The position numbers and the translations under genes were made by a program. 64,000 bases of DNA from Thunnus maccoyii (lineage: Eukaryota; Chordata; Actinopteri; Scombriformes; Scombridae): contig NC_056553.1 in NCBI RefSeq assembly GCF_910596095.1, positions 18,809,725-18,873,724 of the forward strand, written 5' to 3'. Positions 29,831-64,000 of this stretch are shown here, piece after piece. The notes beneath the pieces are model-generated. The model was not told the DNA's origin, searched no databases, and saw nothing but the letters and a program-made list of their open reading frames with translations. The number at the start of each line of letters is the position of its first letter. Position 1 is the first letter of the stretch.

Positions 29831-32800
29831 TTCCAATTTTTTAATTTCAATTTTTTCTATCTTCAAAACTGTCTGATTGAAGATCAGTCCAAGCGTCACC
29901 ATCCGCCTTTGTCAACTTTTATCAGCCGGTTGCACAAAGACCTATTCAGTGAAGCTCTGGATGCACAAATATCACACATATTCTATCACTGCTAACAAGA
30001 GATAGAAGAGCTCGAGTTTGCAGTGTGATCAGAATCAGGGCACAATGCACATGCGAGCAATATAAATAGACAAAGTGAAAAAAAAAATGCAGACATACTG
30101 TAGATAGGAATAAATAGAGCCACAAGAGATGTTTAGCATCATGAAGTAGATCTCAAAGCCTGTCGTCAAATGCTAAGTGCATATCCCTGCTTATCAGCCA
30201 CCTGTCCATCCAGCCCCCTCTGCTCTCCCAAAGCACCTGAGCTGCTGGCCGCTCTTCACAGGCCTGGACCCCACTGTTGTGACTGTGGGAAACATGTGAC
30301 TGAAAGACTTAATGGGCAGTCTAAATCACAGGCCTGTCACTTTGTGCCTTCATTCAGATTAATGTGCACACCAACCGGCCAGGCATTAAGCCCCACAGGC
30401 CCTCTCAATGACACACCTCAGCGCTCTGTGGCACACTGCTGCGCACCTGCTGCACACAAATACACACTGAAAACCCACACGGAGGCTTGTCATGCTCCTT
30501 AAGAAGCTCATGCACTCAAAACACACACGCCTTCACCAGGAAAAGCAAATAAAATCAGCACACTGCAACCTTGGAAAGAGATGAAATGGAAAGAGTGAAA
30601 CAATGGGAATGTCGGGGAATCAAATGTATCGCAACTGCGGAGTCCTCCAACAAAAACAAGACCATGGCCTTGCTTGCTACTTCATCCCACCATCAGCCTT
30701 CAGCTAGCAACTGAAGCACTTAAACATGTACTGTAGGACATCTCCTCATGATTAATATTATTAGTTTCCATTCAAATGTCCTGTAAATTTTAAATGATTG
30801 GTTGACATGAGACAATAAATATGAATCAGGTGTGTTTCCATAAGCCTGGGGGATGAATTAATATGATTCCTCAATAAAAGAATGAAGTAATGTTAGAAAG
30901 ATTTATAGAAATCTGTTCAAAAGGATGTCAGCTAAAGATTATGTTTCACTTTTACTTGGAGATTTTACAGACAGAAATGACAGCACATCCAACATCTGTA
31001 GAGGTTGCTGATCTTTGCTGTTTACTGCTCAGTATCTTAAATGACAGACCTTTGTCACCTTAAGTGAGCATTAAATGTTTTCTTCTTTTTTTTTCCTGAA
31101 ATGTGTCCACCTCTACAGTATCATCATTTCTTTGAAAAGACTTTGTTGGAAACAAAGCTTTTGACACCCTGAGTATCAACAGTCTCAGTCACTTCCCAAA
31201 AACTGGTTTCATCCAAAAGAATCAGATGTTAAGTATTAATTCTTTGGGATTCGGCAATGAATTAGTGCCTCTTTTTTATTTTCTTGGGACAAGTTCTGTA
31301 GTGGCACCTGATATTGCTGTCTTGAAAATGCTCATAAATCATGATGTCTTCTCTTTTTCGCTTTCTTGGAGCTCAAAATAAATCTCAACAGCATCTGGCT
31401 AATTTTAATGAAAATAGTTTCATCATCTGTTGGAGAGGAGAGGAGAGGAGAAGAGAGGAGAAGAGAGGAGAGGAGATATGAAAGGATGCTCTGCCCTCAT
31501 TTGGTAGAAGAGAGAAATGCAATATTCAGCATTCAGGACTGAGACCTTATAAAGCACCAACACTCAGCCCCTTCTAACTTTTCAAGTATTTTCCCCTTGA
31601 AGATAAATTTAGTACTATTACAAAGCAACACTAAACACTGACCTATCACAAGTTAAATTTGGATGATCAAACACTTTATACATGCATAGATTATATTGTA
31701 AAGGCTCAGAGAGTTGCTACAAACACATTTATTAAACACAGTTTTTCCAATTGTGAATCCAAGATACATTATACAGTATTACACAAAGACTCTGCATTGA
31801 TATGAGGGAATAATGTGTCATTATTATGTATAAATATGCAACAGTCCACAGTATGTGTACTTTCTTAACAAATTTTATGGCCTTAACTATCTAATTCATA
31901 CTTTCCAGTGTCTTATACAGTAAATGGAGAAGAACAAGGTACCGTATTGAGCTGTGAGAGCCAATATGGCTGACAACAAACACCTAAGATACCTAAAGTC
32001 AGAGTTTCTCAATAGAAAAACAAAAATAACAGAATGCTTAGCAGGAACATTGCCAAAATACCCCCACAAGGATTTCTAGGATTATTACTTTAGTTCATGC
32101 AGACTTGCTTGGAACTGACCATTTAATACTTGTTTAACACCACTGAAAGTGGTTATAACTACTTACAACTCAGCTACATCCTGATTCCAAATTTGTTTTA
32201 GCGCACAGAAAGACAAACTAATAGATGACTAATAGATGACTTCGATGACATATATATATATATTTATATATATATATTTATATACATAAAGAGAGACTAC
32301 ATTATATTCTTTCTATTGGAGCCTAAATTATCAATTTAGTGAGTGTGTGTGTGTGTGATATTTAATTTTGAAGAACTTTATTGCTTTATTGCTATGCTGA
32401 ACTCATCAGCATAGTTTTCAGCCACAGCAGGCAGCTATTTCCACTGTCCCCTACCTACTCAGCAACAAATACAGAGTTATTATTGGACTAACATTCATCA
32501 GGTGGTAGGAAACACAACTTCAAATTAATGATTGTGCAACGTGTCTGCTGGATTTGAAAATAAGCTACCATATCAGCTTTATAAAGTGATGATATGTCAG
32601 TGTTTTGTTTACAGCTTGTTTCTGCTGCCACCAAATGGACAATAAAGCACTTGAAGCAGGGTTTTGCTGGTAAGCACCATGTCTAGTTTCAGGCAGAGGA
32701 CATCCATCAGCATACTGACAATCTAACAATTACATTTTCCAAGCTAAACAACAAAACTAATGTTAAGGTGTAAACTTTGCATGTAGAAAAAAGTTCTAGT

Positions 32801-37388: not shown

Positions 37389-40300
37389 ATGTTTAGCAAG
37401 TTGAAGGGCCTCCTCAGTGGCCCACAGGTGCCACAAGCTTCTGGGACCACCAGTGTAGCTCCTAACCCGGCTCCAGACCCAGCTCCAAAACCTGCTCCAC
37501 CTCCAGCTGCAGAAAAGGTAAAACATGCAATGGAATAAAATTCTTCTGTGATCCTCTTGCAAACTTCTGTTAGATATCATACTGTTCAGTATGTGCCAGT
37601 AACAGCAGCAGCAGCCAAGACTGAAACCAAAAAAAAAAAAAAGAAATATTGCATCCAGCTTGTAATACAGCAAGTCTGGTTACATTTGTTTCTCCTAAGA
37701 TCACCGCAGTGGCTTTTTATCTGTCCCTCTATCCATTTAACTGCTCAGTGCTTATGCCAACAAAGAATCAAATAAATTTGTTTCATTACAAGGACCTCAT
37801 TGAAATCGCTCATTACCCGACAGGCACTTTTAAATTCATTTCATCTTGAACACAGCAGATTTTTAAAAGTGTCTATCAGGCATGGGAGTAATTTGTCAAA
37901 TGCTAAATTCACTATGCTTTAAAAACGCTCTCTAAATTAAAGTGTCTCTCTAATGACTGGGCTTTGACTAATGAAGTCGACTATCTGACTTTGGGGAAAA
38001 TGTTGATTTGTCGTGTAGGAGGAGAAGCCAGCCGATAAGGAGAATGAGGACAACAAAGTGGACAAACCGCAGGGTAAGTAATAATTCATTTTAGAGGCTG
38101 AAATGGCAGGTTTAGAAGATAAATTGCTGTATGTCATTGTTTGTTTAGCTTTATGTAAGATGGGCTGTCATCTCTCATTTTACAGAGGGTTCAGGAATAT
38201 GTTGTAACCCTCTAAATTATATTTCTGTCCGTTAGTTTCGACAACATACACTTACAACAATACACAAATATCACAGTTTCACTCATGTAACTTGATTATT
38301 TGATCACTCTTTTCTTGCTCGCTATGTCCAGCTGCTCTGACTGTAAATATGTGTAGAAGCATTTTGGATCTTTATTCCTGTAATCCTTTTTCAAAACAAA
38401 ATTTGCAGAGTATCGGGAAGCCGCAAATGGCTGCAATCAGCTTTTGGCACACTTGTAAGTCGGCGGTATTGATCAAGAAGAAAAATCAGATAGACAGAAG
38501 ACAATAAAGATGCACACAATGACAAAATTTGACTGTTGACAGCTGATCAATATGGAAAGTTCAGCTCTGAGCTTATTGTCAGTCCAAACATCAGTTTTCC
38601 AGGTTTCTGAGGTCTATAGGAAATGTAATTTTAGTGACTTGTTGATTATGTTGTTCATAGCTTAGATACCTTTCTTCTAGAGATTTTAGAATCAAGGACG
38701 ATCACCCATTTTCACCCAAAAGAGCTGGTCATTCTCTTACTTAATGTATCAGAAAGTCAGGGAGAGAGCAAACCCAAACTCCTAACCAATCTTATGACTG
38801 CAGGACATGCCGTTATGGACATGTACGGATGAATCTGGACTTGTGGAAATTATGAGTTTCATCCATGACTTTGGTTCAATTTATGCATACTTTGTGTCCT
38901 TCTCGTCCACAGTATGTCTCAGTCATGTATTTAACCAGTGCAGCACAGATGCCAAAAAAGAATTAAACAACTGTATTTTGCCTCACTGCTTTATATAGCC
39001 CTTTCTTGAACTGTGGTTTGGACTGTTAGCATTTTAACATACTGATACTGTAAAGCCACATCAACTATACACTGTAGAATCATCTGGAGGGCATTATTTT
39101 TCAAGGAACTTTGAAATCATAGCACTTTTCAAAAAACAAGTTACAAAGTGATTTAAAGTAAAATAAGGAGTAAAAAAGTTAAATAAAACATATAAATACA
39201 TATAAACATATAAATTGAGATAAAAAAAAAAAGGCTTTAAAAGGAGCAGTAAAATCTCTTAAAGTAAAATTTTTAAAACTTGCAGGCAACCAGTGAAGGG
39301 CAGCAAGTATTGGTGTGATGTGGTTTCTTCTCTTAGAGCATGTCAACAGTGATGTGTATAACTTGTAGTCCTGGATGCCTCACCTACTGAGACCAGAATA
39401 AAGTGTATTACAATAATCATGTCTCCAGGAGATAAAATGTAACTGTGGTTGTCCACCTTTCTTAGAATCAACTCCAGCCCCGGCCCCGGCACCGGCCCCG
39501 GCTCCGGCCCCAGCCCCGGCCCCGGCCCCAGCCCCTGCCCCGGCTCCTGCCCCTGCTCCAGCTGCAGCTCCAGCTCCAGCTCCAGCTCCAGCCCCAGCAG
39601 CAGCCCCAGCCAACCCTGATCAAGCGGGAACTGAGGGGTAAGATATATATCTGTTTGTTGTTTGTTTTGTAGAGTGATGACATCAACAAGCATAATCAAA
39701 TAATTTAGCACCAATCACAATGACATCGATACACCTTCATCAGCAAGTTTTTCTCTACCTGATTTGTTCTCAGCATTAGAATATGGAACAGCATAAACAT
39801 AAGCAATTAAAGAGACTAGATGTAGTGTTTTTATCCCTAGAGTATCTGCTCTGTCTCCACACTCAACATTAGCCTACCAAAACACACACCTGCCAAGACA
39901 CTGACACCACCAACTAGTATCAAATTAATCAGCCAGTGGACACTAATTAATCAGACTCCCTGGCAAGATGGCAGAGAGAGACACAGAAAGCCGCATGTGA
40001 GATCTTAATCCCCTGGTGCAACATGCATATTAACAAGAGGATGACCTGAAAGTGGATTAAAAGCTTTTCAGCTTTTTAGATGTAAGAAGCTCACCAGGGC
40101 TGCTTCTGGCCCAGCAATAAAAGCCATGAGGGCGATAGGTAAAGACAGATACAGCTGATCCTCACAGTTATAAACACACTTGTCCAAATGAGGAGACTTG
40201 ATGTGAATGTTTCATCAGTGAATAACAAGGGAGTGATTGTAAGAGCTGGGGGCTCTGTGTGGAGCACAATTAGAGATGCCTGCAACCAGATTGAATGATG

Positions 40301-43300
40301 TGTGGAATAAATAGCCTGTGAGTGTCAAGAGTTCAAAGGTTATGCTATTACACTGTACTCCACATGAGGGCTGATCTTTGGCATGTTATAAAAGAATATT
40401 TTGTACCTCTGATGAACATAATGTAGTGTTCTATTATTTTTATTGATTAAGAAAAAACCTTCATCGACTGATGATTATAATGATTTTTTTGTCATCTTGG
40501 ATAGCAGCAGAATAAAATTCCAATCAAAATTTGATCTCAAAATACATGCTCATTATTACTTAAAGCAGGCATGATCAGTATTTGTAAGTAAAAGGGGTCG
40601 CTCGTTGTGATGAACCCACAGAGAATTAACACTCGACTCTGCTGTTCGCCTGAGCTCTATGAAACTTTATAGCAATTTTCAGCTTATTATTTTTGTTTTA
40701 CAGTGCGACTATTTTGGTTCAGTGTCACGGCTCTCATAGCATTGTTATTGGAAGCAGCAGGCAGCTGTTTTTGGTGACAAAGCTTTAAAAACAGTTGATA
40801 TGCTACTTGTCCAGCACCAAACGACACACAGAGTTGTTGACTACCTGATGAATATAGTTGCACATTTAGCAGCTAATTAGCCAAATATTTCCTTCAGGAG
40901 TTAGTGGAGATCAAAAGAAAAAGCTAAACAGAGAGTGAATATTGGACTTAAATCTGACCTGGTGGCCAGAAAAATAACTCAAAATGAATGCTAATGCTAT
41001 GTGTCTACTGGATGTGTAAATAGGAAACTGTTTGGTAGCCAGTTCACTATATCAACTTACAGGTTGATAATATGTCACAGCTTTGTTTTCACTATCCCCA
41101 AGTGGCTAATAAATCGTTTATTGCAGGTTTATACAAGACCAAGTGTCTATACAGCCACACTTGCAGCTTCGTTGAGACCAGGGTTGCCAGGTCTGTGTGA
41201 CAAAACCAGGACAGTGGCCAATCAAAAGCAGCCTAAAAACCAACCCAATACCAGAACTCAAAATATGCCTCTGCCAAACCATATACACTGCTTTTAAAGT
41301 CCAACAGCATGGTTATCATTGCCAAATGTATTGTAATATCTACAAAGTGACACAATAAATATTAAGTGTGCCAGCATTAAAAGCAGTTTTCCAGAGTTGG
41401 AATTGAGAGGCGGGCGCTGGGCGGCGGAGAGCATTACAGCACCTTGTGTGTGTCTGTGTGTACGTGGGTGGTGCGTTGGCATGTGTGTATATGCTGATCT
41501 GGATCAGCATATACACGCAGTTGGTAGGATTTATGTATAAATAAATTATTTCATTTAAAACATTTCATTTTATTTATGGATATTATTCATGTAATTTGCA
41601 TGCAAAATAGGTCTACCCAACTAGCAGACAAAATTCAACCTACGGCAACACTTCAAAAGTAGCCCAATTCTGCAGGAAAACCGCAGACCTGGCAACCTTG
41701 GTTGAGACTTTACTTAGGCACAGCAGTTCTTTAATCCAAATGCGTCAGCATGCTAACATGCTCACAGTGATGATGCTAACATGCTGAAATTCAACTGTTA
41801 ATATTTACCATGGTCACTTAGTTTAGCATATTTGTATGCTAACATTTGCTAGTAGCACCAAACATGTTTCCACTGAAGCTGACGGAAATGTCTTAAGTTA
41901 TGCAGATGTTTGGTCATAAACCAAAGTTTTGGGCATGTTAAATTGCACCAGGTGAAGAGTTTTGAAGAAGCACATTTTGTGTCGATCTATCTAGTAGATG
42001 TTGAATCTTGAGATATTTCAACTGATAAGTGAAAATTTTGACCTGCTGGTTAACTATAGGTAGTTATTAAAATGTATCCTCTGTGCACCATGATATCAGT
42101 ACCAAATAGTGGAGGTGGGGGATGGTGTGTTTGTGGTGGAGGGATGGGTAGGAAAGTGAGTGAGAGGAGGAAGCCCAACTCTTGGACTGTTTGAATCAGT
42201 CTCCTCAACTGATGTGTGCTTAACCAGAACTGAGTTCACATCCTCACTGCTGTGCAGGAAATCTTCCACTTTGTGTCCAGCATTGTTCCACCTCACTGTG
42301 ATGCCTCCCTCATGATGCATGGAAAGAGTTTTTCTGATTCATGAGGGAGTGATAAAGAAACAGGCTGTATGCTTTTTGATTATTACAAGTATATTTTATT
42401 GGCTTTGATTTGAAGATCTTAAATTAAATATATTGTTTTTTTATGTCACCAAGTTTAGGGCAGTTATGGTGCAGTGCTGATTGATTTGTAATGACACATA
42501 TGAATCCCTTTTCTGGCTCCTTTGAACCAGACGTGTTACTGAATTTTGTCCACTAGGAGGCGACATATGAACCCAGATTCCTGTGTCTGTTGCACTGATT
42601 CTGGCTGTCAGCTGAGCCTTTCCACTTCAAATGACATTTCACAGTTTAAATGTCTTTATTTGACATTACAAATCACAATTACTGTACTAAGTCATGTATG
42701 AATGGTAGTTCCTGTAGACTCATTTTATTTACATTTATTTTATTTACCATGTTATATTTTGCTCTAAAGTGTATCACGAGGAATTTTTCTAAGAAAGTCT
42801 TATCCAACATAAACACGAACATTGTAGTAAACTGTTCATTTTTTTCCTGACCTTTCTTTTCCTTGTTCAGACAGGAGGCGGCCTCACCTCTACCCATAGT
42901 CATCAACAAGTACTCAGATGCGCAGCTCAGAGCCATAGCCAAACAGATGAAAGAAAGACTGAACATCTACAAGGAGAAAGTGACTGATCCGCACGCTTCA
43001 TCTCCAGAGATCAGCCCTCCTGTCAGTGAGTACAAACACAGATTTATTACGTTTCAGCTGTGTTATAAAGCATAATATTTGTGATATATGTGAATGTGAA
43101 TATCTTGTTAATCATAAGTGACACAGTTTTCAAATTATGAGTATTTCCTGTAACATTGAGTCTTAATGTTGTCCTTTCAGCACCACTGCTGCGCAAAGAC
43201 CACTACACAAAAGTCATCGAGGAGAGGAAAAGGCAAGCAGAGGAGGACCGGATAAAGAAGGAGGAGGCTGAGAAGAAGAAGAAAGAGGAGCAGGAGCAGA

Positions 43301-46300
43301 AAAAGAAGGAGGCCGAGCAGAAGAAAAAGGAGGAGGAGGAGAAAAAGAAAGCAGAGGATAAAGATGAGAAGGAGGAGGAGAAGAAAGAGAAGGTGGACAT
43401 AAAGGCCAAGTTTATTGCATTTTTCTGGTCTTTTGTTGACATTCTGCTGAAGCCAATAGAGGACAGCATGGACTCTGTGGTGGGGACGACCATCGACCCT
43501 TTCACAGGTAAACTCCTAAATCTTAAGACTATGGTTTAGAGTTTATCAGGCACATTAAATTCCCATCATCCCCTCTCTCTGCAGACCGTCGCTACATCGC
43601 CTGGCTGAGCGTGGTGACTCTTGCCTTCAACTACAACACCTGGTTCGTCACAGCCCGTCTGTGTTTCCCGTATCACACTGAGAGCGCCATCCCTCTCTGG
43701 TTCGGACTGGACTTGCTGGCCGACGCCATCTACCTCATAGACAGCATCATCTTCCAGCCCCGCAAACAGTTTGTCAAAGGAGGAGACATCATAGTGAGTC
43801 TTGCATAATCCTTTTTTTGTGTGTGTGATCAGTTTTTATCAATATTTAAACATGATTATAGTGGTGAGGTTACAAGTTGATAGATCACAAATAAAGTAGA
43901 TGAACATAATCACAAATGTCCATTCATTAATCAGCATAAAATTGCCATTCTATGTACAATCTATTAATCGCTTGGCAGCTGTAAGGCTAGCGACCCAGAG
44001 ACGTCTCTGCTCAGCACAGAGTTCCAAGTTGGAGCTGTTATTAAGTAACGGGACTTCTGGAAAGTAAGAAATTGATTTGGACAACATATATGGCATCTTT
44101 TAGCATTTCTGAAACCCTCTTCCAGAACTCTGCAACCCTTGGGCACTCCTACACCATATGAAAAAACGTGCCCAATGCATTTTAGTGCATAGGAATGCAA
44201 TGTGTAGGGAGTGAAATATGTTCTGTGTATGAAAATGAGTCATAACCCTAACCGATGGAGGCTGTCACATGGAGACTGAAAACTTTTTTTTTTTTAAATA
44301 TTTTTTCTTTTTATTATTCTTTCAGAAAGACAGACAGTTGACAAAGAAGAACTACAGAGAATCAGAGAGATTTATGGTATGGTATTTGAGGGATTCTTTG
44401 AACTTTGAATTTTAGGATGATGTCATCTTAGTGACCTCATACACGTCTCTTCTTAACAGGTAGACATGGTGTGCCTCCTACCTTTCGACTTCCTGTACTT
44501 CCAATTTGGATTCAAGTCCATTTTCAGAGCCAATCGTATGCTGAAGGTGAATTTACTCATGTGTTTCTCCCGTGTTGAGGAAAACATTAAAAAAAACATG
44601 CTAAGGTGACTTTCTTTCTTGTCTGTTGCTGATTTTTTCATGCTTGTTCTCAAGGCAGATACGTTTTTCGAGTTCAGTGACCGTCTAGAAAGCATCATGG
44701 CCAAGGCTTACATCTGGAGGTAAGTTACAAGACATTTAGCAGCTGTAGCCATCACTGTTGTTATCATACATAATAATACAAAGCCAGGATGTGTTTGACT
44801 TATCATCGGGTCAAGACAGAAACTCATCTTATGAAATTGTCAGAGTAAAAACATAAGTAAGCTATTCCTGCAATTTAACAAACTCCCTAAACGTCAGATA
44901 TCTCCCTTTTTAATGGCATAACCTCTTTACTCATCTGTTAGAGTGATTCGCACCATCGGCTATCTCCTCTTCATGCTCCACCTCAACGCCTGCTTCTACT
45001 ATGTGGCTTCAGAATACCAGGGCATTGGCAAAACTAAATGGGTTTACTCCGGCCTGGGCAGTGCGTAAGTGTTATTACATTAATGCTTGTGTATGGCTAA
45101 ATAGCATTCTTGTTTGTGTTTGCATATTGCACAGTTTTAAAGTATCATTAATGTGTAAAGTGAAGGTATAAAATCTTGCTCACCATTACTCTCACTATAG
45201 CAATACTACTACTACTACAATACTATTACAATACAGTTACCCAATAACTTACCATGTTTTAACTGTCAAAGTGTAGTCAAAATGAAAACTGATACTTTAT
45301 ATCGATTTATATCGATACAAGATAATCCACTCAGTATTGTCATTTTAATTAAGATTTGTTAAATAAAGCTCTATTTAATTATTTAAAAAATAGAGTTTTT
45401 GAAAAGTTAAATGCTTTATGAAAATGTAATTGCCCTTTTGCTGATAAAAAAGATAAATTGAGCTGTAAACGACCAAAATTTGACCAACATGAATTTCAGA
45501 CATAACACAGAGCTTTTATCTGTCTTTATGTTGTCATTACAATGGCTGCTGCACTGAAACAGAGTTCCAGTCTTTTAAAAATCATCCCTTAAATATCTGA
45601 AGAAAATGCCCAAATGTAAAATCCATTGTATGTTCCATCTCTGCTGCTGCTGCAGTTACCTCAGCTGCTTCTTCTATGCGGAGAAATCCCTGCTGATGAT
45701 CGCTGAGTTGCCAATTCCTGACACCATGTTCGGACAGATCTTTCAGATGACAAACTACCTTTTTGGGGCATTCTTTATGTCCGTCATGCTTGGCCAGGTA
45801 GTTTCTTTCTTTGTGATATTTTTAATCACTGTTTTATGTTTTCTTCATTACATTTTTTTCTTTTTTTTTTGTCTTTTTTAATGGTGATTTGGTCGATCTG
45901 TTTTGGGATCTTTTTTTCCTTTTCTTTCTTTCCTTCTTGTTCTTTTTTTACCTTTTTACCAACTGTCGTATACTTTCTATTTCTTTTGGGTTTTTATTTT
46001 TTAAATTTGGCAGCAAGACATCCAGGGAATCAAACTCGAAAAATAGGGGTAATAACAACTCAAAGCGTTCACTGAGCTCTGGACACTCCCTCCTAAACTC
46101 ATGCGCATGCATACTGTACTTATTCCCCTTTCCACAAAACAGACCAGTGACATAAAGTATAGTTTATGACAACCCCTCTAATGCCCCCCACCCTCTCCAC
46201 AGGTACCTGCGATGTTACTACTTTGCTGTCCGCAGTCTGATCAACATCGGGGGTCTTAACGAACCCCACACCGTCTTTGAGATTACCTTTCAGATGACTA

Positions 46301-48591
46301 ACTTTTTCACGGGCGTCTTTGTGTTCTCCAGTTTGATTGGACAGGTAACATAGAGACTCGTTCTGGCCCCGTAGCATGAGTCACGGTCCCACCTTCCTCA
46401 CTTCATCTGGAAACTTCATAGTCTTTTTAGTGTAGTGATGTAGAGATAGAACGAAACCTGTCCATTTAGGATTGATACTGCTGATCACTAGTCTCCATCA
46501 TCCATCACTCCATATGTTGTTGTATTTTAATGGTTCCCTGTAAACGTCTTGACTGTCAAAAAGCTTGTCAAAGGTTCTAAATGTGGCATTTTAGCATCTG
46601 GAAGACATTAATCCTTCTTTTCTAATAGTTTTCCAAAGGTTTCCTTAGTTTGTGTATTTATTCTCACTGTCATCCTGCCTCAGATGAGAGATGTCATTGG
46701 TGCAGCCACAGCAGGGCAGACCTATTTCCGGACCTCCATGGACAACACTGTGGCCTACATGGTGACCAACCACATCCCCTCTTTGGTGCAGAACAGAGTC
46801 CGCACCTGGTACACCTACACCTGGGATGCTCAGGGCATGCTGGGTCAGTAGACACTGCATGAAGTGTGTCAGAAACTGTCAGAAAGCCTGGAGTTATAGG
46901 GAAACTTCAAATCCTCATGCACACGTCATCTTAAAAACAAGACATGGTTCTGCTTTCCCTTGTAGCTCCAGACTCATTTGACATCCAATTTAGACCTAGA
47001 ACTAACTTTTCTGTTTTGTTTTAATGATTTCAGATGAGTCAGAGTTGCTGGATAAGATGCCTTTGGTGATGAGAACTGCCATTGCTGTGGACATCAACCT
47101 GGCAACTTTTCAGAAGATTGATCTTTTCAAGGTGCAGGCACACTGAAGCACATATAAACACAACAGACACAGTAAATCAAGCATATTCCATTGTATGTTA
47201 AATATATTTTTTTTCCCATAGGGCTGTGACCAGCAGATGTTGGTTGATATGTTACTGAGGCTTAAGTCTATCGTCTATCTACCAGGAGATTTTGTCGTCA
47301 AGAAAGTGAGTTATCTTATTGTCATCCTGGATTTTAAATGTTAATTTTAGTTGTTTGGCCTTACCTCAACACAAAAATAATCCATCCCTCCAAAAACCCA
47401 TCAGTGAAACCTTTTCGGAAATATCTGCTGCTTACTCTGTCAAATTGTGCCCATTTGTGTTTGTCATTTTCTTGCTTTGTTTTCTCTGCAGGGTGACATC
47501 GGTAAAGAGATGTACATCATCAAGAGTGGAGCGGTGCAGGTGGTGGGAGGACCTGACAACAGTATTGTGTTTGTCACACTGAAGGCTGGCTGTGTGTTTG
47601 GAGAAATCAGGTAAGATAAAAGGTTATGCTTTCTAGCTGTCAGTCCACAACAATGTATTGCTTCTAATCAGTTTGTTTATTCTCAGTCTGTTGCAATCAT
47701 CCAAAGATGGAGGAAACAGGCGTACAGCTAACGTCAAAGCTTACGGCTTCGCTAACCTCTTTGTCCTGGAGAAGAAAGACCTCTTTGACATCCTCGTCCA
47801 CTACCCAGAGTCTCAGAAAGTGCTGGCCAGGAAAGGAAGGTGAGACAGAGGCCTGGCTGAAGACAACACTTTGTTTGGTTTTACAATAGTTTTGTCATCA
47901 CTCACTCATACACAATAAATAAACAGCATGTATCGTTGTCATCACATACACTGACCAACAGCTTAAACCCCTAAAAGTTGTAAAAAGCTGTTTGTATTAA
48001 TAGTGATAGCCTCAGCACTTATTGACAGTTGTAATTAAATCTTTTACTATCAGAGAGAATATTATAAAGTGGATCCACATCCTTACAGTCCTAACTATCT
48101 TTTCAGATCTGTCTTTTTTTTCAAATATTTGCTTATATATTAGACTAGATCGTGTTATTAGATTATTTACACACAATATTTTCTCCACTGTAGGGACAAA
48201 AGGAGATTTTTGATACAATTGCAACAGCTCAACAAAGCTTTAACTTACAAGTATACATACAGGCACTTTATCAGTGAGCATTTGTTCATATTGTGTGTAG
48301 GAAACTAATGAAGGCCAAGGGTCCAGCAGCAGTTAAAGTTGAAGAGGACAAGAAGAAAGGACTGGCGCTGTTCGGACCCAAACCTCCCACACCCAAACTG
48401 CTGCGTGCTGTCGGTGGAACTATTAACAAAAGAATGATTGACAAATTGAAGGTAACAACTCCTTTCTCTCAATTACTGTTTCTCACATATCTACATTTGA
48501 TCATAGTAAAGTCATTGCAGTTGTGCTGACTGCTTAACATAATGTACTCTATTCTTTTTTTTCCCCCCAGAGTGCTGCTGGTGGCCGATGA
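37389..48591 (+). CDS. cngb3: Cyclic-nucleotide-gated channel beta-3 subunit, tandem copy A (complete, 18 exons)
   Basis: CNGB3 is the modulatory subunit of the cone cGMP-gated cation channel in the outer-segment membrane. Coding exons: 37389-37517, 38019-38073, 39466-39637, 42871-43025, 43181-43507, 43585-43793, 44326-44376, 44460-44546, 44655-44719, 44942-45064, 46203-46344, 46684-46843, 47034-47131, 47222-47305, 47492-47610, 47687-47839, 48301-48451, 48571-48591. All junctions are GT-AG with consistent phases, giving 766 residues. The start MFSKLK resembles mammalian MFKSL. Order: Pro-Ala repeat (about 62-118); a CNGB3-type motif INKYSDAQL ending SSPEISPP; Lys/Glu coil (about 181-245); S1 about 281-306; S2 about 315-335; S3 about 367-382; S4 about 388-405; S5 about 417-440; pore and S6 458-505 (filter IGGLNEP); C-linker 506-600; cyclic-nucleotide-binding domain to about 709, with FGEISLL and NRRTANV in the phosphate cassette. 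The N-terminal motif and filter glycines favour CNGB3 over CNGB1. The C-terminus is shorter than human CNGB3. A duplicate pore exon lies in intron 10. Confidence 0.94.
39100..39445. repeat. LINE-derived repeat in cngb3 copy A intron 2, ending just before exon 3
   Basis: The strings AGGCAACCAGTGAAGGGCAG, ATTGGTGTGATGTGG and CAGAATAAAGTGTATTACAA resemble a common fish dispersed LINE-type sequence. Recognisable repeat runs to about 39440, within about 25 bases of the exon 3 acceptor at 39465. Confidence 0.6.
40690..41178. repeat. Dispersed repeat in cngb3 copy A intron 3 (left part)
   Basis: Text such as AGCAGGCAGCTGTTTTTGGT and GTCTACTGGATGTGTAAATA resembles the stretch at 32420-32580 in this window, suggesting two copies of one family. 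The hAT-type element at 41179 is inserted at its right side, and GCTAACATG-rich repeat text resumes at 41740. Confidence 0.5.
41179..41700. mobile_element. Non-autonomous hAT-type element with perfect 8-bp target duplication, in cngb3 copy A intron 3
   Basis: The left end CAGGGTTGCCAGGTCTG and the reverse complement of the right end CAAGGTTGCCAGGTCTG match at 16 of 17 bases. GTTGAGAC flanks both sides exactly (41171-41178 and 41701-41708). No transposase is encoded. Inside, 41485-41516 is a perfect palindrome with 15-base arms and a two-base centre. Confidence 0.85.
41709..42060. repeat. Dispersed GCTAACATG-rich repeat, right side of the hAT insertion
   Basis: Repeated GCTAACATGCT units and GGTCATAAACCAAAGTTTTG are typical of a widespread fish repeat. 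It was split from the text left of 41179 by the hAT-type insertion. Confidence 0.55.
45656..45797 (+). CDS. cngb3: Alternative (duplicated) pore/S6 exon of cngb3 copy A
   Basis: This lies in intron 10 of copy A, 591 bp after exon 10 and 405 bp before the normal pore exon. A pyrimidine-rich tract and CTGCTGCAG form the acceptor, and CAG|GTAGTT is the donor. Spliced to exon 10 it opens in the same phase and encodes 47 codons from YLSCFF to MSVMLGQ without a stop. The normal exon is also exactly 142 bp and ends at LIGQ. By direct comparison 21 of 47 residues match, including the FQMTN stretch that opens S6. The pore loop differs: [16 protein letters not shown] replaces [16 protein letters not shown]. 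Glutamate therefore replaces the second filter glycine, the position of the pore glutamate in CNGA subunits (TIGETPP). Including both exons or neither shifts the frame, so mutually exclusive use is expected. Expression is inferred, not shown; a non-expressed exon relic is the alternative. Confidence 0.82.
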
Positions 48592-50077: not shown

Positions 50078-53000
50078 ATGTTCAGCAGGTTGAAAAGGTT
50101 GATAAGGGCGCCCGAGCCTCCCCCTGCTCCAGCCGCTGCCCCACCTTCTGCAGCAGCTCCACCAGCGAAGGTAAGGCCTCGACTACTATTATTACCTTTG
50201 AAAATTCAAGAAACTAGAATAGAAATGTACTTTTGAAAACATTTGTTTTACCTTGACATTTGTAAAATCAATGCATTTTACTTGCTAATTTTATAAAATT
50301 GTTAATATTTATCAGCTGCCCCCTGAACAACTGTCTGGCAGTTTTCTTACATGCAAATATTAAGTGAATCAGCTTTTGTATTTTCTTCTTGTTTGTCACA
50401 CACATGTTGTTTTAAGGTAAACAGTAAGAGCCTCTGAAGCAGCTTGGCACTGATAAAAACAGTTGTTGTTGTAGCCTCAGCAAAGAGGCTGGGCCTAGAT
50501 GAGCAAAGTTAAGAAGGGAAAGACAAGAATTAATTGCCAGGGTCATTGTGTGAATTAGCAAATATCAAAACTGAAGCCTGGGTCTGGATTTGTTGTAGTA
50601 GCATTTTCAGCATTTTTAGATGCACTTGCAACAAAATAAGTCATACAACCGGGTCCTACTCTGTCTCATAATTTGTCTCTCTCATTTTCGTCTGTTCGCT
50701 ACTTCGTTATTTTGTCTTTCCAGGAAGAAAAGCCTCCTGAAAAGAAGGATGAAAATGAACCGCCAAAGAAGGAGGATGAAAAGAAAGAAGAGGAAAAGAA
50801 AGAGGAGCCAAATAAAGAGGAAGAAAAGAAAGAAGAGGAGAAAAAAGAAGAGGAGAAGAAGAAAGAGGAAGAACCCAAAAAGGAAGAGCCGAAGCCAGGT
50901 TAGAAGTCTTGCTTTATTTAGTCTAACTCCATCCATCCATGTTCAGTTTTATACTGATTATAATGTTTGCATGCTTGTTTTCCAGTAACGCCAGATTACG
51001 CTTAGTGTTACATGTACATTCTTTACACAGACCTGTACAGACCAGGATTTGGTGTTATTTTCTATGCTCTATATTAGTTTTTGTGGAACATTGTGTTGTA
51101 TTGGACTCTCTTTATACACTTTGATTTTAAGTTTTGCTAAATGGAATGACATGGTCATGAACTGAACCATATCGAGTGAACCAGTGAACTCTTATTTACT
51201 GACTGGAAATGCAGCACCTTTCTTCATAAATATAATGCAGAAACTATCAACAACTTACTGACATAAACGCATGATGCAAACATTCTTATGTAATGGCAAG
51301 TCTTTCGGTGCACAGAAATGCAAAAAATGTTGACACTCAAGTTTTATTACAGTGATGAAATGGTGTGTGAGTGTGAAGAACACTATGCTGTAAATTACAT
51401 GCATGGAGACTAATGTCATATTTTATCAGTCTGCAAAAATCAGATGAGGATCAATCTTTTTTTTTTTTTTACAACAACACTGGTATATAATGCAGAAATG
51501 AGTGATTTCAGGTTATGAGGGAACTGTTAAGCAGTTGGTTCACTGTGTTGTTCTTTTTGTCTCGGGTATTAATAGCTGCTGATATTAGTATTAAATTTCA
51601 TTTTTTAGAAACAGATTAAAATATCTTGCTATCATTTTCTTACAGCTCCAGCTCCTGCCCCTGCTCCAGCTGCTCCAGCTGCTCCAGCTGCAGCAGCAGG
51701 TGCTGATCCTGCCAATCCAGAGGGGGCTGAAGGGTAAGAACACATCATGCACCTAAAGAAATGACTGATCAGATGACAAACTAAAAGTCAGCATATAATA
51801 TTATTTTTAGTACTGATGACTGAATTAATTTGCCATTCATCTGTCATCTTAAGCTTTCAAAACTCACTTTTTTTTTTGCTTTGCTTTGACTGTTCTCATG
51901 GGACTCATATTCAAAATTAGATTTCGGGCATGAAAAGAAAGCATGAGCCCTTCCATAAAGTAAGCAGGAAAGCAGGAAAGCAGGAAAGTGCCATTTTGGA
52001 AACTAATTGAATGATAGTACAAGTGTTCAACTCAAGCATTAACTGCTGTGGAGACCAGATGACAGATGGTCATCTGAAATTGTCGAGGTTGAGAAGTTGT
52101 AAAAAAGGCTTAAAAAGGAGCGCTGACATCTGTGCACAGATAAATGTGGGAGAAGAAGATATATTATCTCTGAGCTGAATGTTTATGTTGGATATCAGAT
52201 GTTTTATTTCCTACTGATCTCACAGATCATACTTCAGTATGATTTTTTTTTAATCTGACTTGAGACCATTTTATCCAGAGAATGTTAGAAAATCAGGATT
52301 CTACACAGAGATTGGATAATCACAACAATTATCTTCTCTTGCCGTACAACAAATAATTCATAAATCAACAAAACCTTTCCATTATGTGTCATTGGACCAT
52401 CTTGTTCAATAAGTGTTTGTTAGTCAGTGTTAGTGATGAGTTACTTTGTTTGCCTGTTTGAGTAAGAAGAAGATGACAGAGAATAATTGTTTATTACTGT
52501 TGATAAAAGAGACGATTGCTGGATTGGGAAAACCTGCACAATTTAACACCTAAATTTGAAGAATGTTTGTATTTTCAGCTGATATAGTTGGTACTGCATC
52601 AGGGCAGTGGTGGAAGAAGTACTGACATTTTTACTTAAGTAGCAATACCTCACTGAAAAAATCGCTTATTATTACCTCTGAAATGTAGTGTAGAAGCAGT
52701 ATAAAAATGCATAAATTGCAAATACTCAAATAAAGCACAAGTACTTCAAAACTGTACTTTGGTACAGCACTTGACAACACTCTGCACTCTAACAATCTTT
52801 CAGGTCTTTTGTGTTGCCTCCAGGCTGAGATCATATGAGATTAAATTCACTGAGCTCTGTTTGAGACAGGAAGAGGATGTTTTAAACATATATTTTAAGC
52901 ATTTAAATCACCACTCAACATTATAGATGCATTAAGCAGTGCCGTTTCTATGTCTCTAGTCACTGTATTCAAAATACAAGTACTGTGATACTAGCTGAGA

Positions 53001-56000
53001 CTGTAGTAGTGATTAAGAGCTACGCAAATAAACTTGACTTGGCTGAGAATACTTTGATCCTGCTTGAGGTTGAGCTCTGTCCATTTTAGGAACTCCTCAT
53101 TAGTTTCTAGGAATCATCGTAGCGTACTACATCAGCTTCAGACAGCTTACATGGACAAGCTGTCATTTAACTTCAAATGATTTGACTTTAGGCACTGGGA
53201 CTAGGGACTGTTGCTCCAGTCTGACATCCAAATGTCAACATCTTGTATTTACTTTCCAAACAGGATACATTAATCCTTTTCATGTTATTGTGCAGACTGA
53301 CTCTATATAACTCCCCACATATTATTTTATCTTTCCTTACAATAAGACACAGTGACTGTACGCACTGCAGTAACAGCAGCCACAATAACACCGTGACTTG
53401 CAGCCTGTGACTCCTAAAGTAGGAAAGGAGATTAGGAGCTTAGCAGTATTTGTGACTGAGATAGAGACAGCATTCACATGCAAGTTGGAGAGTTGATATA
53501 TTGTTTTTCTGATAATGATTTATATTATTTTTTTGCAAGACAGCTTCAGCTGAAATAGTCTTGTCTAAAAGAGAAAGAAAAATTATCTTAATCATATTTT
53601 CTCTTAGAGGTTTAGTTAAAAGTGGAACAGAAATCCAACCTGTTTGTGGTCTCGCCAATGTTTGGCCTCTTAAAGAGGTGATGTAGGGTAGTGTGTCCGC
53701 GTGTTTTTTCTTCTACTACAGATGCTCAATAGTGATAATTATAACATGAACTACACTGTCATACCTGATAATGTTATTGAGAATAGAATACTCATTAACT
53801 GAGAATGCTCTCTTCTGGTTTATAAAAAGGAAATTCTTATTTTAGCAAAGTAAACCTCCCTGTTCTTTTTGTCCCTCTTCTCTTCTTTCCTTACAGCTCT
53901 TATTATCATTTTTATATTATTATATTTTATATTTAAATATTATTTCTCTCATTAGGACCCTTCTCTTCCCTCCCATATAATTCAGTGTCATCTTGTCTAT
54001 GGTATTCCTTAATTCGTCTTTCTTTTTTGATTTGTATTCCTGTTTTCAGTGAAGAACGCCCTCCGACTCCACCTGTTGTCTACACCCGTTACACAGATGA
54101 CTGCCTCAGATTTGTGATCAAGAAGTTAAGAGAGCGGACGCAGACGCTCAAAGAGAAAGTCAGCGACCCGTATGCCACTTCTCCGGAGATCACCCCACCT
54201 GTCAGTAAGTAATGGCGAAAACAACCCAATGCATACATACAGAAAACAAACCCACAAAGAAGTGCCATTTAACAAGTCATCATTCTGTTCTGTTCAGCGC
54301 CCATTCTGAGGAAGGAGGACTACATCAGATTGAAGGAGGAGGAGCGCATCGCAAAAGAGGAAGCGGATAAGAAGAAGGCAGAGGAGGCGGCCAAAAAGGC
54401 AGAGGAGAAGAAGAAAAAGGATGAGGAGAAGAGGCTGGAGGCAGAGAAGAAAGCTGAGGAGGAGAGGCTGGCAGAGGAGGCCAGGAAAAAAGCCAAGATC
54501 CTCCCGGACATCAACTGCTCCTGCTTCGAGGTCCTCCTTCTTCCCATAGAAGAGAAGATGGATACGATCCTGGGGACCACCATAGATCCTTTCACAGGTG
54601 GGTGAGCTCATTGCAGGCTAAGTAAGTAATGAGATGCATAAAAATACTGAAATCTGTGTGTTTGTCTCTGCAGATCGTCGGTACATAAGCTGGTTGACTT
54701 TCGTAGCGGTGGCATACAATTACAACGCTTGGTTTTGCTCTGCCCGACTGGCCTTCCCTTACCACAACCCCTTTATGAACCCCTTCTGGATAACTTGTGA
54801 CATTCTTAGTGACGTAGTGAATGTTATTGACATTGTGGTTTGGCAGCCTCGGCTTCAGTTTGTCAAAGCCGGAGACATTATTGTAAGTCACAATATCATT
54901 ATTGTATTTTGTGTTCCACACACATTCTGAATGTTATCACTGTATATAATTAACATAAATACTTCTATACTTTGCAGAAAGACAGAGTCTTGACTAAAGA
55001 ACATTATCGGAAATCGCAGCGATTTAAGGTGAGAATGTAATATGACCAAATCAAATTACAGAATTAAACAAACTTGTTGTGAAACATAACCAAATTTCTG
55101 TTTTTCCTCTTTTTGTAGACTGATATGATCAGCATCATCCCCTTTGACCTTCTCTGCCTGTATTTTGGATTCTCTTCTATATTCCGACTCAACCGCTTCA
55201 TCAGGGTAGGCAGGCAGCTGATTATTTTTAACTGAAGATGTAAATGAAGAAAAACAGGGATTTTTGTTTGTGTGACTTCATAGCTCCTGTTCAGTTTCTC
55301 CTCTTTTATTCCTTGTGTGTTCTAGATTGAGTCTTTCTTTGAGTTCAGTGATCGACTGGAGAGTATCATGGCAAAGGCCTACATCTGGAGGTAAATGCTT
55401 GTGGAGTAAATACAGGAGTAAAACAAGCCTCCATGGAGATTAACACTGATTTTATTGAATTCTTAGTACAAAGGCTAAATATTTTTTTTTTTATTGTTAG
55501 GAATATGAGTGGGCTCTGTTGCTAAATTGTTTGGATTAAAGATTGGCTTTTGAACATCATCCATATTATGTTGAATTAATTATTATAAAATTTTCTTCAC
55601 ATTATACATCTTCTGCTGATTTCATGGCAATATACAGTGTATAAAGTACCAGTCAAAAGTTTGGACACACTTTCTCAGTCAAGAGAATAGGAAGGTGTTG
55701 GAACTGCATTGGCTATTGATTCCCACATGGATCAGTGATATTTTATCTAATCTACCTCATCTATTATTGTCTTTTTCTATTGCTCTCTTTCTGATGCAGA
55801 GTGGCTCGCACCACAGGCTACCTGCTTTACATGCTGCATATCAATGCCTGTATATACTATAGTGCCTCAGTATACCAGGGTCTGGGAAAGACCTTATGGG
55901 TGTATAGTGGAAAGGGCTCAGCGTACGTACTTTTTACATTTGTCTTGTTTATGTTTGTGATATTTATGATTTAAGGGCCATTAGTGGCATTGTTAGAGTT

Positions 56001-59000
56001 CTCCATGGTGCTTTCACGCCGACATTCAGGCCAAGTGTCTCTGTCTCTCTCCGTGGTGCTGAAACACTGTGAGCCCATCCCTCTTTCAGCCTCTGTCCAT
56101 GGTGCTGAAAATGTCATTTAGTCTCTCTATGGCTGCATCTGAAATCACTATTTTCACTAGTTTGCCATTTTATTAAAGTGTCCAAATTTAAGCTCTATAC
56201 AGCACATCAAAAATTCACACAGTGGAATGAAAAAAGTAGCATCCATCGTATGTACACTGCTTCCCAATCCCACAATTCAACAAGTCACAATTTATAGATA
56301 TGAAAATTCCAGTCATAATTACTATAGAGTAAATTACTGAGTATCCATTATATCAGGGGCAGTTGGAGTGATGCCAGATGCAGCCTATCTGTCTAGCTGG
56401 AGCACCTGTAAATGCCCTAACAACCACAAGCATCATTTAGTCATGCCCTTCCAACCACCCAGAATACCATAGCAACCACCTACTGACACCCAAGAAACCT
56501 TGCTAACACAGAGAAAGCAAGATTAATGTGGCAAACACCTAGCAATACCATACCAACCATTTAGCATCACCTCAGCAAAAACCTAATCTGATACAGCTTT
56601 ATTTAAGAAGGAAATGTGTAAACTTTCTTCAGAAAATGTACCCTTTACCAGTGTTACACCATCACTGTTTTTATGTATTATGTACCCTTTAATGATTCCA
56701 TATATTTCTCTAAATGCACTGTGACATTCCCCTGTCATATGGGTTGTATGTGTTATTGAAAAGAGCAAAACATAGCATGAAGGTACTATAGTGTCTTTTT
56801 ATTAAAATGAAATAAAGATGCTTTGCTGCATGTTGTCTGTGTTTTTTCACTCTTTACTGTCCTTCCACAGGTACCTGCGTTGTTATTACTATGCTGTGCG
56901 CAGTCTGATCAACATCGGGGGTCTTTCAGAGCCTGTAACCATCTTTGAGATTTGCTTTCAGATGGCTAACTTTTTCATTGGTATCTTTGTGTTCTCCAGT
57001 TTGATTGGACAGGTAGGAGGATTCATAAATCTATCATGTGGCAAATGTTCGAGGATCTTAGACCAGTATATTTGTCCCTGTCATTCAGTGTGTTACTAAG
57101 TACTCTTATCTATTCTTAATGCACTTCTTATCAAAAGCTTTTCTCTGCAATTGTAGAACATATTTTAATTTAATTTCTTTTCAACACTCTCCCTTTCTTT
57201 CTTTCCTTCTTTCAGATGAGAGACGTCATAGGAGCAGCAACAGCAGGTGAGACATATTTCCGGGCAAATATGGATGAATGCGTTGCCTACATGAACACCT
57301 ATACGATCCCCAGGCATGTCCAGAACAGAGTCCGGACCTGGTACAACTACACTTGGGCTGCTCAGGGCATGTTGGGTGAGTCTTTTCTTTCTTTCTTTAT
57401 TAGGATTAGCACCAGCATTGCATTGGCTATTCTTCCTGGGGTCCACCACACATACAGTCATACACACTACACTATACATATACACTATAATCACATAAAC
57501 ACGAGAAACAAAACAGCTCATCTCATAGGATGAACAATCAAGTACCTATAGAAGAAAAACAAAATTGTCATCTGTTCAACAGGAAAACACTAGTTTACTA
57601 GTTTACTAGTTTACAAACACACACAATTCAATTATGGTTCCTGAAATGTTTGGAGATACTATTTAACGATATTTTAAACCTATCTTTTGTATTTTTTTAA
57701 CAATATGCACTGGCAATGAATTCCACCTGCTAATGGCTCTGTACATTACTGTTTTCTGTATCATATATGTTTTGCTTTAGGCAACATGAACCTTCTTTCT
57801 GTTGCATATTGATTTTGATAATTGTGTTGAACAAACTGAGAAAATAATCGTTCATATAATATCTTTGGTGCTCTTGTCACCAGTATACTTCTGATTAAAC
57901 TTAACAAAGCATAGGTGGATCTCTGACTGACAGCCCAGTCTGTCATGTATGTCTATCTGTAAGAGCACTGTAAAGCACAACATGCAGATTTATTTTGAGC
58001 TACTTGTAATTTTTTTTTAATCTGTTTCATTGAAGCACTGGATCAAATCATGAAACACTAACCAATCTGTTACAGAACTAAAGCATTTAGAACTTGTCTG
58101 ATGACATGTGGTGGCATAGCTTTTAAAACTTTACTCAGTCTCAGAGCACTTTATCCCAGAAACCTGATGAGACACTAAAACTCTACTCAAAACCAAACTG
58201 ATGAAACTCTTATAAGATTAGTTGATGCATAATGCAGGATACAGTACTACAGAAAACTGGAGAGGACATGTGTTGTGTTTACTATCTTCCTTTGTCTGTT
58301 TTTCTCATGATCACAATTTTGTTATCTTGACAGAACAAGCTGTGCTTTGTTGTGGTCACAAAATCACAAATCAAAGATCAGTAAATAGTAATACACACTG
58401 ATTTTTTGTAGGGCCTCTTCAGGCTTCCATACTGCATTACTGCATTTCAATTAAGAATTCCTTTAAAAAAAAAAAAGGCAAACCTGTTGGTGGGATGACT
58501 GAATAATGATGAAGTATCATTTACCTGCTGCCACGTTTCTCTTATCCTTGTTTCCTTGCATGCAAACACGTTGTCACCTTCAGATGAGTCAGAGCTGCTG
58601 GACAAGTTGCCTCTGGTGATGAAAACGGCCATCGCTGTGGACATCAACCTGGCGACTTTCCAGAAGATTGCACTGTTTCAGGTGTCGTAACATTCACTGT
58701 GTTCTTGCATTAGAGCTGGGAAACCAGCCTGTGTCAGGACTGTTGACAAGAAGACAAACTAAACAATCAGCCCACAGTCATGAAATCATATGACATTGTT
58801 TTAAAAGTTTACCCTATTTTTCTGTCAAGACACATTGGCTGAGAAACAATGAATGTATTTGACTACTTAACCTAAATATGGAGTCAAACAGCATGATAAT
58901 AACTGTAGCATACTGATATTGTTTCTTCCAGGGCTGTGACCAGCAGATGTTGGTGGACATGTTGCTGAGGCTCAAGTCTATTATCTTTCTACCAGGAGAT

Positions 59001-60605
59001 TTTGTTGTGAAGAAAGTGAGTATTTGTGAGAGCGTGTCCGTCTCAGTGTGAAACAGTTGGATAAAAAGATTGTTAAACTATGGTGATGATCATGAAGTAA
59101 ACAACCAACAATATGACCGAGGTTTTGTGATCTGAGTGTAATGCTGACCTGTGTTTCCATCTTGCGCTCTCCTCTGCAGGGTGACATCGGTAAAGAGATG
59201 TACATCATCAAGAGTGGAGCGGTGCAGGTGGTGGGAGGACCTGACAACAGTATTGTGTTTGTCACACTGAAGGCTGGCAGTGTATTTGGAGAAATCAGGT
59301 TAGTCTGCAGGAGCATTTACTAATCATGATGTACAGTACAGTGTAAGGGATGACACTTATTGGCATGATAATTATAATATATTTGCTTTGGTCAAATCTT
59401 GTGCCATCATATTTTTCTTATCTTAAAGCTAAATTACACCAAATTTTAACATTTACAAGTCTGTTTTAAGCAAGAGGGTGTAGTAAGAATAAATTGATTT
59501 GCAAGCTTAAAATGCTGTACCTTTGTTACAATACGGGCATATTAGCATGTTATAAAGATGCTACTTGTATCAAAGTATGAATAACCTACATCCTGCAAAT
59601 TAACTTATGTTTTCTGAACAGTATCAACTTAACAAAAGCAGTGCATATCACAGGGCTGTTGCATTAAATTGTATTATATTGTGTGTTCGTTGTTTGTCCC
59701 ATGCGTTTCCAAATTGTACGGAATGCCAACACCGACTTTTTTTGTTAGCTGAGTGTTCTACCCTTAATGACCAAAAAATTCATATCAAACCAATTCTGTG
59801 TTAACTGTCATGGACAAGTGGTTTATTTCTGCTTCCATCTCCCACAGTTTACTACAGTCTGCCAAAGATGGTGGAAACAGGCGCACAGCAAACGTTAGAG
59901 CACATGGCTTCGCTAACCTCTCTGTCCTGGAGAAGAAGGACTTGTTTGATATTCTCGTCCACTACCCAGAGTCTCAGAAAGTGTTGGCCAGGAAGGGAAG
60001 GTGAGTCATGTTCTAACTGTGCTTGCGCAACAGAAAGAAGAGTTTTAGTCAGATTTTCCTTAAGTATGCAAAGGATTTATTGTGATTATGGCTGTTTTAG
60101 TGAATTTTTTTAAAACATCAGTCAAATCCTTGTTATACTACTGTACATAAGATGCAGCTTGTTAAGGATTGTGTGTGTATGTGTGATTGTAAAGGAAACT
60201 GATCAAAGCCAAAGGCCCTGCAGGTGCTAAAACAAACGAGGAAAAGCAGAAAGGACTCACCCTCTTTGGACCGAAACCACCAACACCAAAGCTGCTCAAA
60301 CTCTTTGGCAATATGCGCAAGGTAAGTTTTCACACTGAGGCAACATTCTTCATAGAGAGATAGCTGCTGAGTAGCAGGTGGTGTGATTTAGCAGTAAACA
60401 ATTTGAAATAAGCCTGAATTTGTCAATTTTTGGAAGCTAAGTAATTAAGTAAATACCTTTTCACTTTTTAGAAAAAGTATTTACTTAAATACAGTTTTAG
60501 AACATTAAATCTACCAGAGAAACTGATGAGCCTCTAGTATAGTATTAACTTTGTGTCTTTTTTTTGGTCTTTTGTCCACAGAAAAATGCAGCGGAAAAGA
60601 AATGA
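50078..60605 (+). CDS. cngb3: Cyclic-nucleotide-gated channel beta-3 subunit, tandem copy B (complete, 18 exons)
   Basis: This is the second cngb3 gene, starting 1.5 kb after copy A in the same orientation. Coding exons: 50078-50170, 50724-50898, 51646-51733, 54050-54204, 54298-54597, 54674-54882, 54978-55028, 55119-55205, 55326-55390, 55800-55922, 56871-57012, 57216-57375, 58584-58681, 58932-59015, 59180-59298, 59848-60000, 60195-60321, 60582-60605. GT-AG junctions are phase-consistent and give 750 residues. Exons 4 and 6-16 have the same lengths and phases as copy A, so they are direct duplicates. The start MFSRLKRL has an A at -3. Exon 2 encodes a Lys/Glu-rich segment absent from copy A, exon 3 a shorter Pro-Ala tract, and exon 5 a second Lys/Glu coil. 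S1-S6 occupy about residues 272-496, with filter IGGLSEP. The cyclic-nucleotide-binding domain (about 583-700) keeps FGEISLL and NRRTANV. No alternative pore exon is visible in its intron 10 (55923-56870). Confidence 0.94.
52603..52790. repeat. Dispersed fish repeat with AAGTACTT/AAATGTAG units, in cngb3 copy B intron 3
   Basis: CAGTGGTGGAAGAAGTACTG, TTTTTACTTAAGTAGCAATA and TCTGAAATGTAGTGTAGAAG belong to a very common teleost repeat with GTACTT-rich ends. Confidence 0.6.
55625..55700. mobile_element. Tc1-like terminal inverted-repeat fragment in cngb3 copy B intron 9
   Basis: TACCAGTCAAAAGTTTGGAC followed by ACACTTTCTCAGTCAAGAGA resembles the end of a common fish Tc1 family. Only this terminus is visible. 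Confidence 0.6.

Positions 60606-62071: not shown

Positions 62072-64000
<1,929 letters not shown>

Follow-up and report, generated by a model that had tools for sequence, protein, structure and literature searches.

A conserved pair of alternative pore exons in a teleost cngb3 gene

We confirm here that a vertebrate CNG beta-subunit gene has two alternative, protein-coding exons for its pore, and that this pair is conserved. The gene is the first of two tandem teleost cngb3 genes (copy 1 and copy 2) found in the window, i.e., the whole stretch of 64,000 nucleotides of Thunnus maccoyii DNA that was analysed; an earlier note on this DNA had described the exon pair but not the tandem arrangement. 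The data also support the reading that the two pores are used exclusively.

The best explanation as a whole is an early exon duplication, followed by purifying selection and exclusive splicing, with a filter acid that alters Ca2+ block and flux; we hold this explanation to be reasonably probable. According to it, exon 11 of cngb3 would have been duplicated in tandem early in teleost history, and the duplicate would have diverged and then come under purifying selection. Exclusive splicing would yield two beta subunits, identical outside the pore, one with a neutral GG filter and the other with an acid filter. Three CNGA3 subunits with one standard CNGB3 would bring together three filter glutamates; the alternative subunit, which presumably assembles with CNGA3, would complete a ring of four and would also swap the cavity-gate Phe for Met or Leu. 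The likely outcome would be a stronger external divalent block and an altered Ca2+ flux and gating.

The locus and the two exons 11

The two genes and their exons relevant to this study are as follows.

37389..48591, + strand: cngb3 copy 1, 18 coding exons, 766 aa with either exon 11; model assembled manually on the basis of splice sites and homology
44942..45064, + strand: shared exon 10 of copy 1; the next exon starts in phase 2
45656..45797, + strand: alternative exon 11 (pore helix, filter MIAEL, start of S6, Met at the cavity gate)
46203..46344, + strand: normal exon 11 (pore helix, filter NIGGL, start of S6, Phe at the cavity gate)
46684..46843, + strand: shared exon 12, carrying the arginine-gate Arg (R442 in human CNGB3; PMC10761061, excerpt)
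50078..60605, + strand: cngb3 copy 2, 18 coding exons, 750 aa, single exon 11
56871..57012, + strand: exon 11 of copy 2, filter NIGGL

The residues encoded by exons 6-17 of copy 1 have human CNGB3 chains as their best matches (E = 8e-188 to 1e-187; best-aligned chain 8ev8_D, E = 8e-188). The match covers the transmembrane and cyclic-nucleotide-binding domains, as expected of a CNGB3 protein, and the product is a single-domain CNG subunit, not a protein of the four-domain NALCN/Cav/Nav type. A local duplicate of CNGB3 in teleosts is on record (PMC9803222, excerpt).

Several other features of the locus were observed. A long N-terminal Ala-Pro repeat is encoded by exon 3 of copy 1 (39466-39637), and the counterpart in copy 2 is shorter. 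On the minus strand, an ORF at 62537-62833 looks by eye like part of a WD40-repeat protein and probably belongs to the next gene downstream of copy 2. A long low-complexity stretch of CTTCCTTC-like repeats at 29147-29995 is open in several frames of both strands. No Rfam match was obtained at E <= 1 within 44900-46900.

The alternative exon 11 (flanked by CAG and GTAGTT) lies upstream of the normal exon 11 (flanked by CAG and GTAACA), and a 405-bp intron separates them. Both 142-nt exons are open and, entered in phase 2, finish with a complete codon. Between them, 21 of 47 residues and 76 of 142 nucleotides are identical. The earlier note had given the coordinates, the phase, the 142-bp lengths, the splice sites and the 21/47 identity, all of which proved right on re-derivation. 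So did its frame rule, according to which inclusion of both exons or of neither shifts the frame: a stop follows after 523 residues in the former case and after 458 residues in the latter, and such truncated products are probably decayed. The pair thus has the anatomy of mutually exclusive exons, i.e., two homologous exons in tandem, alike in length and phase, of which exactly one keeps the frame. Since the reading frame survives only with one of the two, we infer exclusive use of the pair in RNA.

Homology and relatives of the alternative exon

The geometry of the exon was rejected as proof. Both strands of the window contain 494 spans of the form AG-142 nt-GT, and 40 of these are open in the same phase, real exons included. 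It is homology to the normal exon of the window, to CNGB chains of the PDB and to 38 database proteins that places the alternative exon beyond chance. A tblastn comparison within the window matches it to the normal exon with E = 7e-11. Over its full 47 residues it matches CNGB1 and CNGB3 chains of the PDB (E = 1.5e-8 to 1.7e-6), and a profile of seven relatives of the exon finds the CNGB chains with E down to 1e-10. The PDB sequences that match the exon at E <= 10 are ten in number, six CNGB and four NaK or NaK-based ones, with no native CNGA chain among them.

Protein searches scored on the 47 exon residues only gave 25 proteins, then 27 (8 new) and then 5 (all new), which makes 38. These relatives are gene models chosen by their likeness to the query exon. 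All of those with an organism name come from teleosts, among them carps, catfishes, anchovy, salmonids and percomorphs. The named genera include Carassius, Cyprinus, Sinocyclocheilus, Phoxinus, Triplophysa, Danionella, Hoplias, Silurus, Clarias, Engraulis, Oncorhynchus, Coregonus, Osmerus, Perca, Morone, Xiphias, Scophthalmus, Paralichthys, Dunckerocampus, Anabas, Astatotilapia, Neogobius and Notothenia. We take these genera to fall in both Otocephala and Euteleostei. With bearers in both groups, the exon probably arose no later than the split between them. Gar, eel, arowana, shark, tetrapods and zebrafish are absent from the named matches, which is weak evidence as only annotated proteins were searched. 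Scans of two collections without fish, genome_contigs (122 pattern matches) and viral_contigs (94), gave no relative, as was to be expected.

The earlier note had named stops or frameshifts in relatives as the observation that would speak against its reading. We sought them and found the alternative exon complete, and continuous in frame with exons 10 and 12, in 23 of the 38 models, in a test that is biased because broken exons seldom reach a protein database. The other 15 models are fused, truncated, oddly spliced or intronic and were left out of the conservation count (P0001, P0013, P0014, P0021, P0022, P0023, P0024, P0025, P0026, P0033, P0034, P0035, P0036, P0037 and P0038). Six of them (P0001, P0023, P0024, P0025, P0026 and P0033) hold the sequence of both exons, the alternative one first. 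These are probably fusions made by gene prediction, i.e., annotation errors that arise from an unrecognised exclusive pair, and they point to an identical order of the exons in those fishes.

The pore encoded by the alternative exon

The alternative exon aligns to residues 394-440 of the 809-residue CNGB3 chain 8etp_D. In CNGB3, R403 points to the filter, T407-I408-G409-G410 form the filter, G430 is the hinge of S6, F434 and I438 make the cavity gate, and R442 is the arginine gate (PMC10761061, excerpt). The normal exon of the window has the neutral filter Gly (G410) and the pore-helix Arg403 that are expected of CNGB3, with Asn at position 407. In the alternative exon the filter reads M-I-A-E: Glu takes the place of the neutral Gly at 410, Ala that of G409, and Met stands at the position of T407. 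Compared with human CNGB3, its pore helix has the changes V402E and R403K; CNGB1 also has Lys at 403. The arginine gate is present in the alternative isoform as part of MRDV in the shared exon 12.

A CNGA subunit is recognised by a TIGE or TVGD filter in a CNGA-like sequence, and the alternative isoform, with its filter MIAE, is not one. The earlier note had described the pore glutamate as CNGA-like. This holds for the acid, which occupies the CNGA filter position in 38/38 relatives (Glu in 37, Asp in P0019; a biased count, as the query was the exon itself), but the rest of the exon is CNGB-like. The alternative pore is therefore a hybrid, with beta-type features outside the filter and a gained alpha-type acid, because the exon is closest to CNGB1 and CNGB3, its residue 403 is basic and the arginine gate lies in the shared exon 12.

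Channels of CNGA3 and CNGB3 have a 3:1 composition with three filter acids, not four; the filter glutamate is essential for both Ca2+ permeation and Ca2+ block, and a glycine-to-glutamate mutant of CNGB1 shows a much enhanced Ca2+ block (PMC10761061, section 12, excerpt). Since the filter acid is essential for block and the CNGB1 mutant enhances it, the alternative subunit would by analogy confer a stronger divalent block, together with a changed Ca2+ flux. Because residues 407 and 409 differ as well, permeation could change to an uncertain extent and even in either direction, and Ala at 409 and Met at 407 could harm conduction.

The alternative subunit might instead assemble but conduct poorly, or alter assembly or gating, with the filter Ala and the changed cavity gate as the dominant features, and so serve as a brake in which the acid matters little for Ca2+. 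Such a role would suit the Met or Leu found at 407 in all 23 clean models, the Ala found at 409 in 22 of them, and the cavity gate, where F434 is replaced by Met in 13 and by Leu in 10. It agrees less well with the retention of the acid (Glu in 22 of the 23, Asp in one), with the hinge G430, which is kept in 23/23, and with the filter of the Anabas model P0017, which is MIGE and hence nearer to that of CNGA. We consider a brake unlikely.

Conservation and evidence on RNA

Among the 23 clean models, which range from otocephalans to percomorphs, the mean pairwise identity of the alternative exon is 0.836 and the lowest is 0.702. The corresponding means are 0.863 for exon 10, 0.850 for exon 12, 0.923 for exon 13, 0.734 for a segment of exon 6 and 0.635 for exons 7-8. 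Besides the hinge, residues E402, K403, L405, L406, I408, L411, P412 and P414 are invariant, and I438 is replaced by Leu in 22 of the 23. Both exons 11 were available for five genera. Over the same spans (24 residues for Danionella and 41 for Dissostichus; the Perca data combine two species), their ten pairwise comparisons give a higher identity for the alternative exon in five cases, an equal one in one case and a lower one in four.

In a tree of 47 columns, 22 alternative exons are separated from 8 normal CNGB exons with support 100/100, although the bootstrap was unsettled. The stem totals about 2 changes per site and the branches within each kind are short, which we read as fast change after the exon duplication and stasis afterwards. 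An estimate of dN/dS between the exons was dropped owing to saturated dS (no finite value with the normal exon of copy 1, 2.2 with that of copy 2); dN is about 0.5. The old duplication under selection proposed in the earlier note is supported by the intact frame and the conserved sequence across many teleosts.

One database protein bears on splicing. The 2226-nt contig of P0006 codes for 610 aa, in which the alternative exon sits between exon 10 and exon 12 with the frame intact. The exons that it covers (4 to 18) span 5.7 kb in the window, so P0006 is either a spliced transcript or a retrocopy of one. It has odd residues at otherwise conserved sites and may be a retrocopy, though still of a spliced RNA. 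Isoform labels are present in the source names of five models (X1 in P0010; X2 in P0011, P0016, P0018 and P0032). Models P0034, P0035, P0036 and P0038 read through intron DNA and hence were not counted as evidence on RNA.

A frame shift that leads to a stop on double inclusion is also what a poison exon would produce, its inclusion beside the normal exon lowering the amount of productive cngb3 mRNA and its protein sequence being useless. We regard this as very unlikely: the amino-acid sequence, beyond the DNA of the splice sites, is kept as in exons 10 and 12, and P0006 joins the alternative exon directly to exon 12. That the exon is a functionless relic of an exon duplication or of a lost gene copy is barely credible, for a relic of that age should have decayed instead of keeping an intact frame and at least 0.70 pairwise identity in 23 models, even if a standard channel needs the normal exon only and copy 2 does without the alternative one.

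Candidate splicing control

Returning to exclusive splicing of the pair, three features near the alternative exon are candidates for its control.

45641..45655, + strand: CTGCTGCTGCTGCAG-type acceptor of the alternative exon
45798..45997, + strand: U-rich intron stretch after the alternative donor, candidate splicing control region (62% T over 200 nt)
46012..46044, + strand: candidate conserved intronic element (AAGACATCCAGGGAATCAAA and neighbours), with counterparts behind the exon in four read-through sequences

A run of Cys that results from a CTGCTGCTGCTGCAG-type tract precedes the exon in the read-through ORFs P0035 and P0036. The 405-nt intron between the two exons has 11 TCTT sites, compared with 4 in the upstream 591-nt intron. 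When three short introns were searched with filtering switched off, the element at 46012-46044 matched P0034 and P0035 (E = 0.001 each; the two are near copies of each other), P0036 (E = 7.6e-10, mostly low complexity) and P0038 (E = 0.054). Its 20-mer AAGACATCCAGGGAATCAAA occurs once in the window. The flank before the alternative exon matches P0036 (E = 4.6e-7) and P0035 (E = 0.004), largely through the run of Cys codons, and the same search gave nothing convincing for this flank in P0034 and P0038.

By a rough donor matrix, the donor of the alternative exon scores 2.0; the 34 others in both genes score from -1.5 to 8.5, with 2.9 for that of the normal exon, and so bracket it. A distant-branch-point rule as in OGDH (PMC7969005, excerpt) was considered as well. 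By eye, AG dinucleotides are found shortly before the normal acceptor, which gives no hint of such a rule.

The two gene copies

Intron 10 of copy 2 (55923-56870) gave no tblastn match to the alternative exon at E <= 10. The DNA identity between the copies is 76-98% in exons 11-16 (98% in exon 15) and 59-77% in exons 4 and 6-10; the compared tracts of exons 11-16 are 46203-47839 in copy 1 and 56871-60000 in copy 2. A tract of gene conversion likely begins at the normal exon 11 and leaves out the alternative exon.

A tree of the shared exons did not assign the bearers of the alternative exon to either paralogue. In this tree copy 2 has a long branch and is nested in the euteleost group (99/99), copy 1 and the euteleost bearers stand apart from it with weak support (81/47), and the otocephalan bearers are placed outside both copies. 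Given how much closer the copies are in exons 11-16 than in exons 4 and 6-10, gene conversion may blur the tree.

In zebrafish, cngb3.2 is enriched in UV cones and cngb3.1 in other cones (PMC8405809, excerpt). According to the source names, the gene that bears the alternative exon is duplicate 1 in trout (P0031) and duplicate 2 in carp (P0022).

Discussion

The closest precedent that we found is the pairs 15a/15b and 31a/31b of invertebrate NALCN, which are mutually exclusive pore exons (PMC3557258, excerpt). As in cngb3, the tandem duplicated exons span the re-entrant pore loop (NALCN exon 15 also starts S6), the upstream copy has Glu at the key filter site, and splicing swaps the charge of the filter. 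Unlike cngb3, NALCN is a four-domain channel akin to Cav and Nav, its pairs are reported in invertebrates, and the swap is between Glu and Lys (PMC3557258, excerpt); in cngb3 a separate beta subunit is switched between Gly and Glu, so that one subunit in four changes. By alignment, the exon choice in cngb3 gives G410 -> E, i.e., it works like the NALCN swap without being a member of that system.

Splicing near the pore also changes Na+/Ca2+ selectivity in invertebrate T-type Cav3 channels (exons 12a/12b), although those exons encode an extracellular turret, not the filter or the cavity gate, of another channel family (PMC4436565, excerpt). CNGA subunits, with the filter TIGE, have an acid at the same filter position as the alternative exon (PMC10761061, excerpt). 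In contrast to them, the alternative exon is otherwise CNGB-like and keeps the beta-type basic pore-helix residue, together with the arginine gate. As in our case, splicing is said to tune cone CNG channels: Dai and co-authors (2014) reportedly found that it governs phosphoinositide sensitivity, through a CNGA3 exon outside the pore.

Among the titles and abstract starts listed by full-text searches of open-licence PMC papers, none describes alternative pore exons for a CNG channel. To the extent of these searches, the alternative exon is undescribed, although predicted proteins place it in public databases. Several public fish cngb3 gene models also appear to be fusions of the two exons 11.

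Beta subunits are neutral and alpha subunits acidic at the filter, and this charge, as mutants show, sets Ca2+ block. By splicing, teleosts seem to have arrived at the same filter change, and to have kept it. The idea that, over much of their tree, they swap the ion path of the cone CNG beta subunit in this way (pore helix, filter and cavity gate), giving a second class of CNG channel with a ring of four acids and a Ca2+ entry and block set by cell type or light state, seems to us evenly balanced between right and wrong. Such a switch would be a vertebrate case of filter switching by exclusive exons, and could account for differences among cone types or other light-sensitive cells. It would also offer a natural means to ask why the channels of photoreceptors have three filter acids instead of four.
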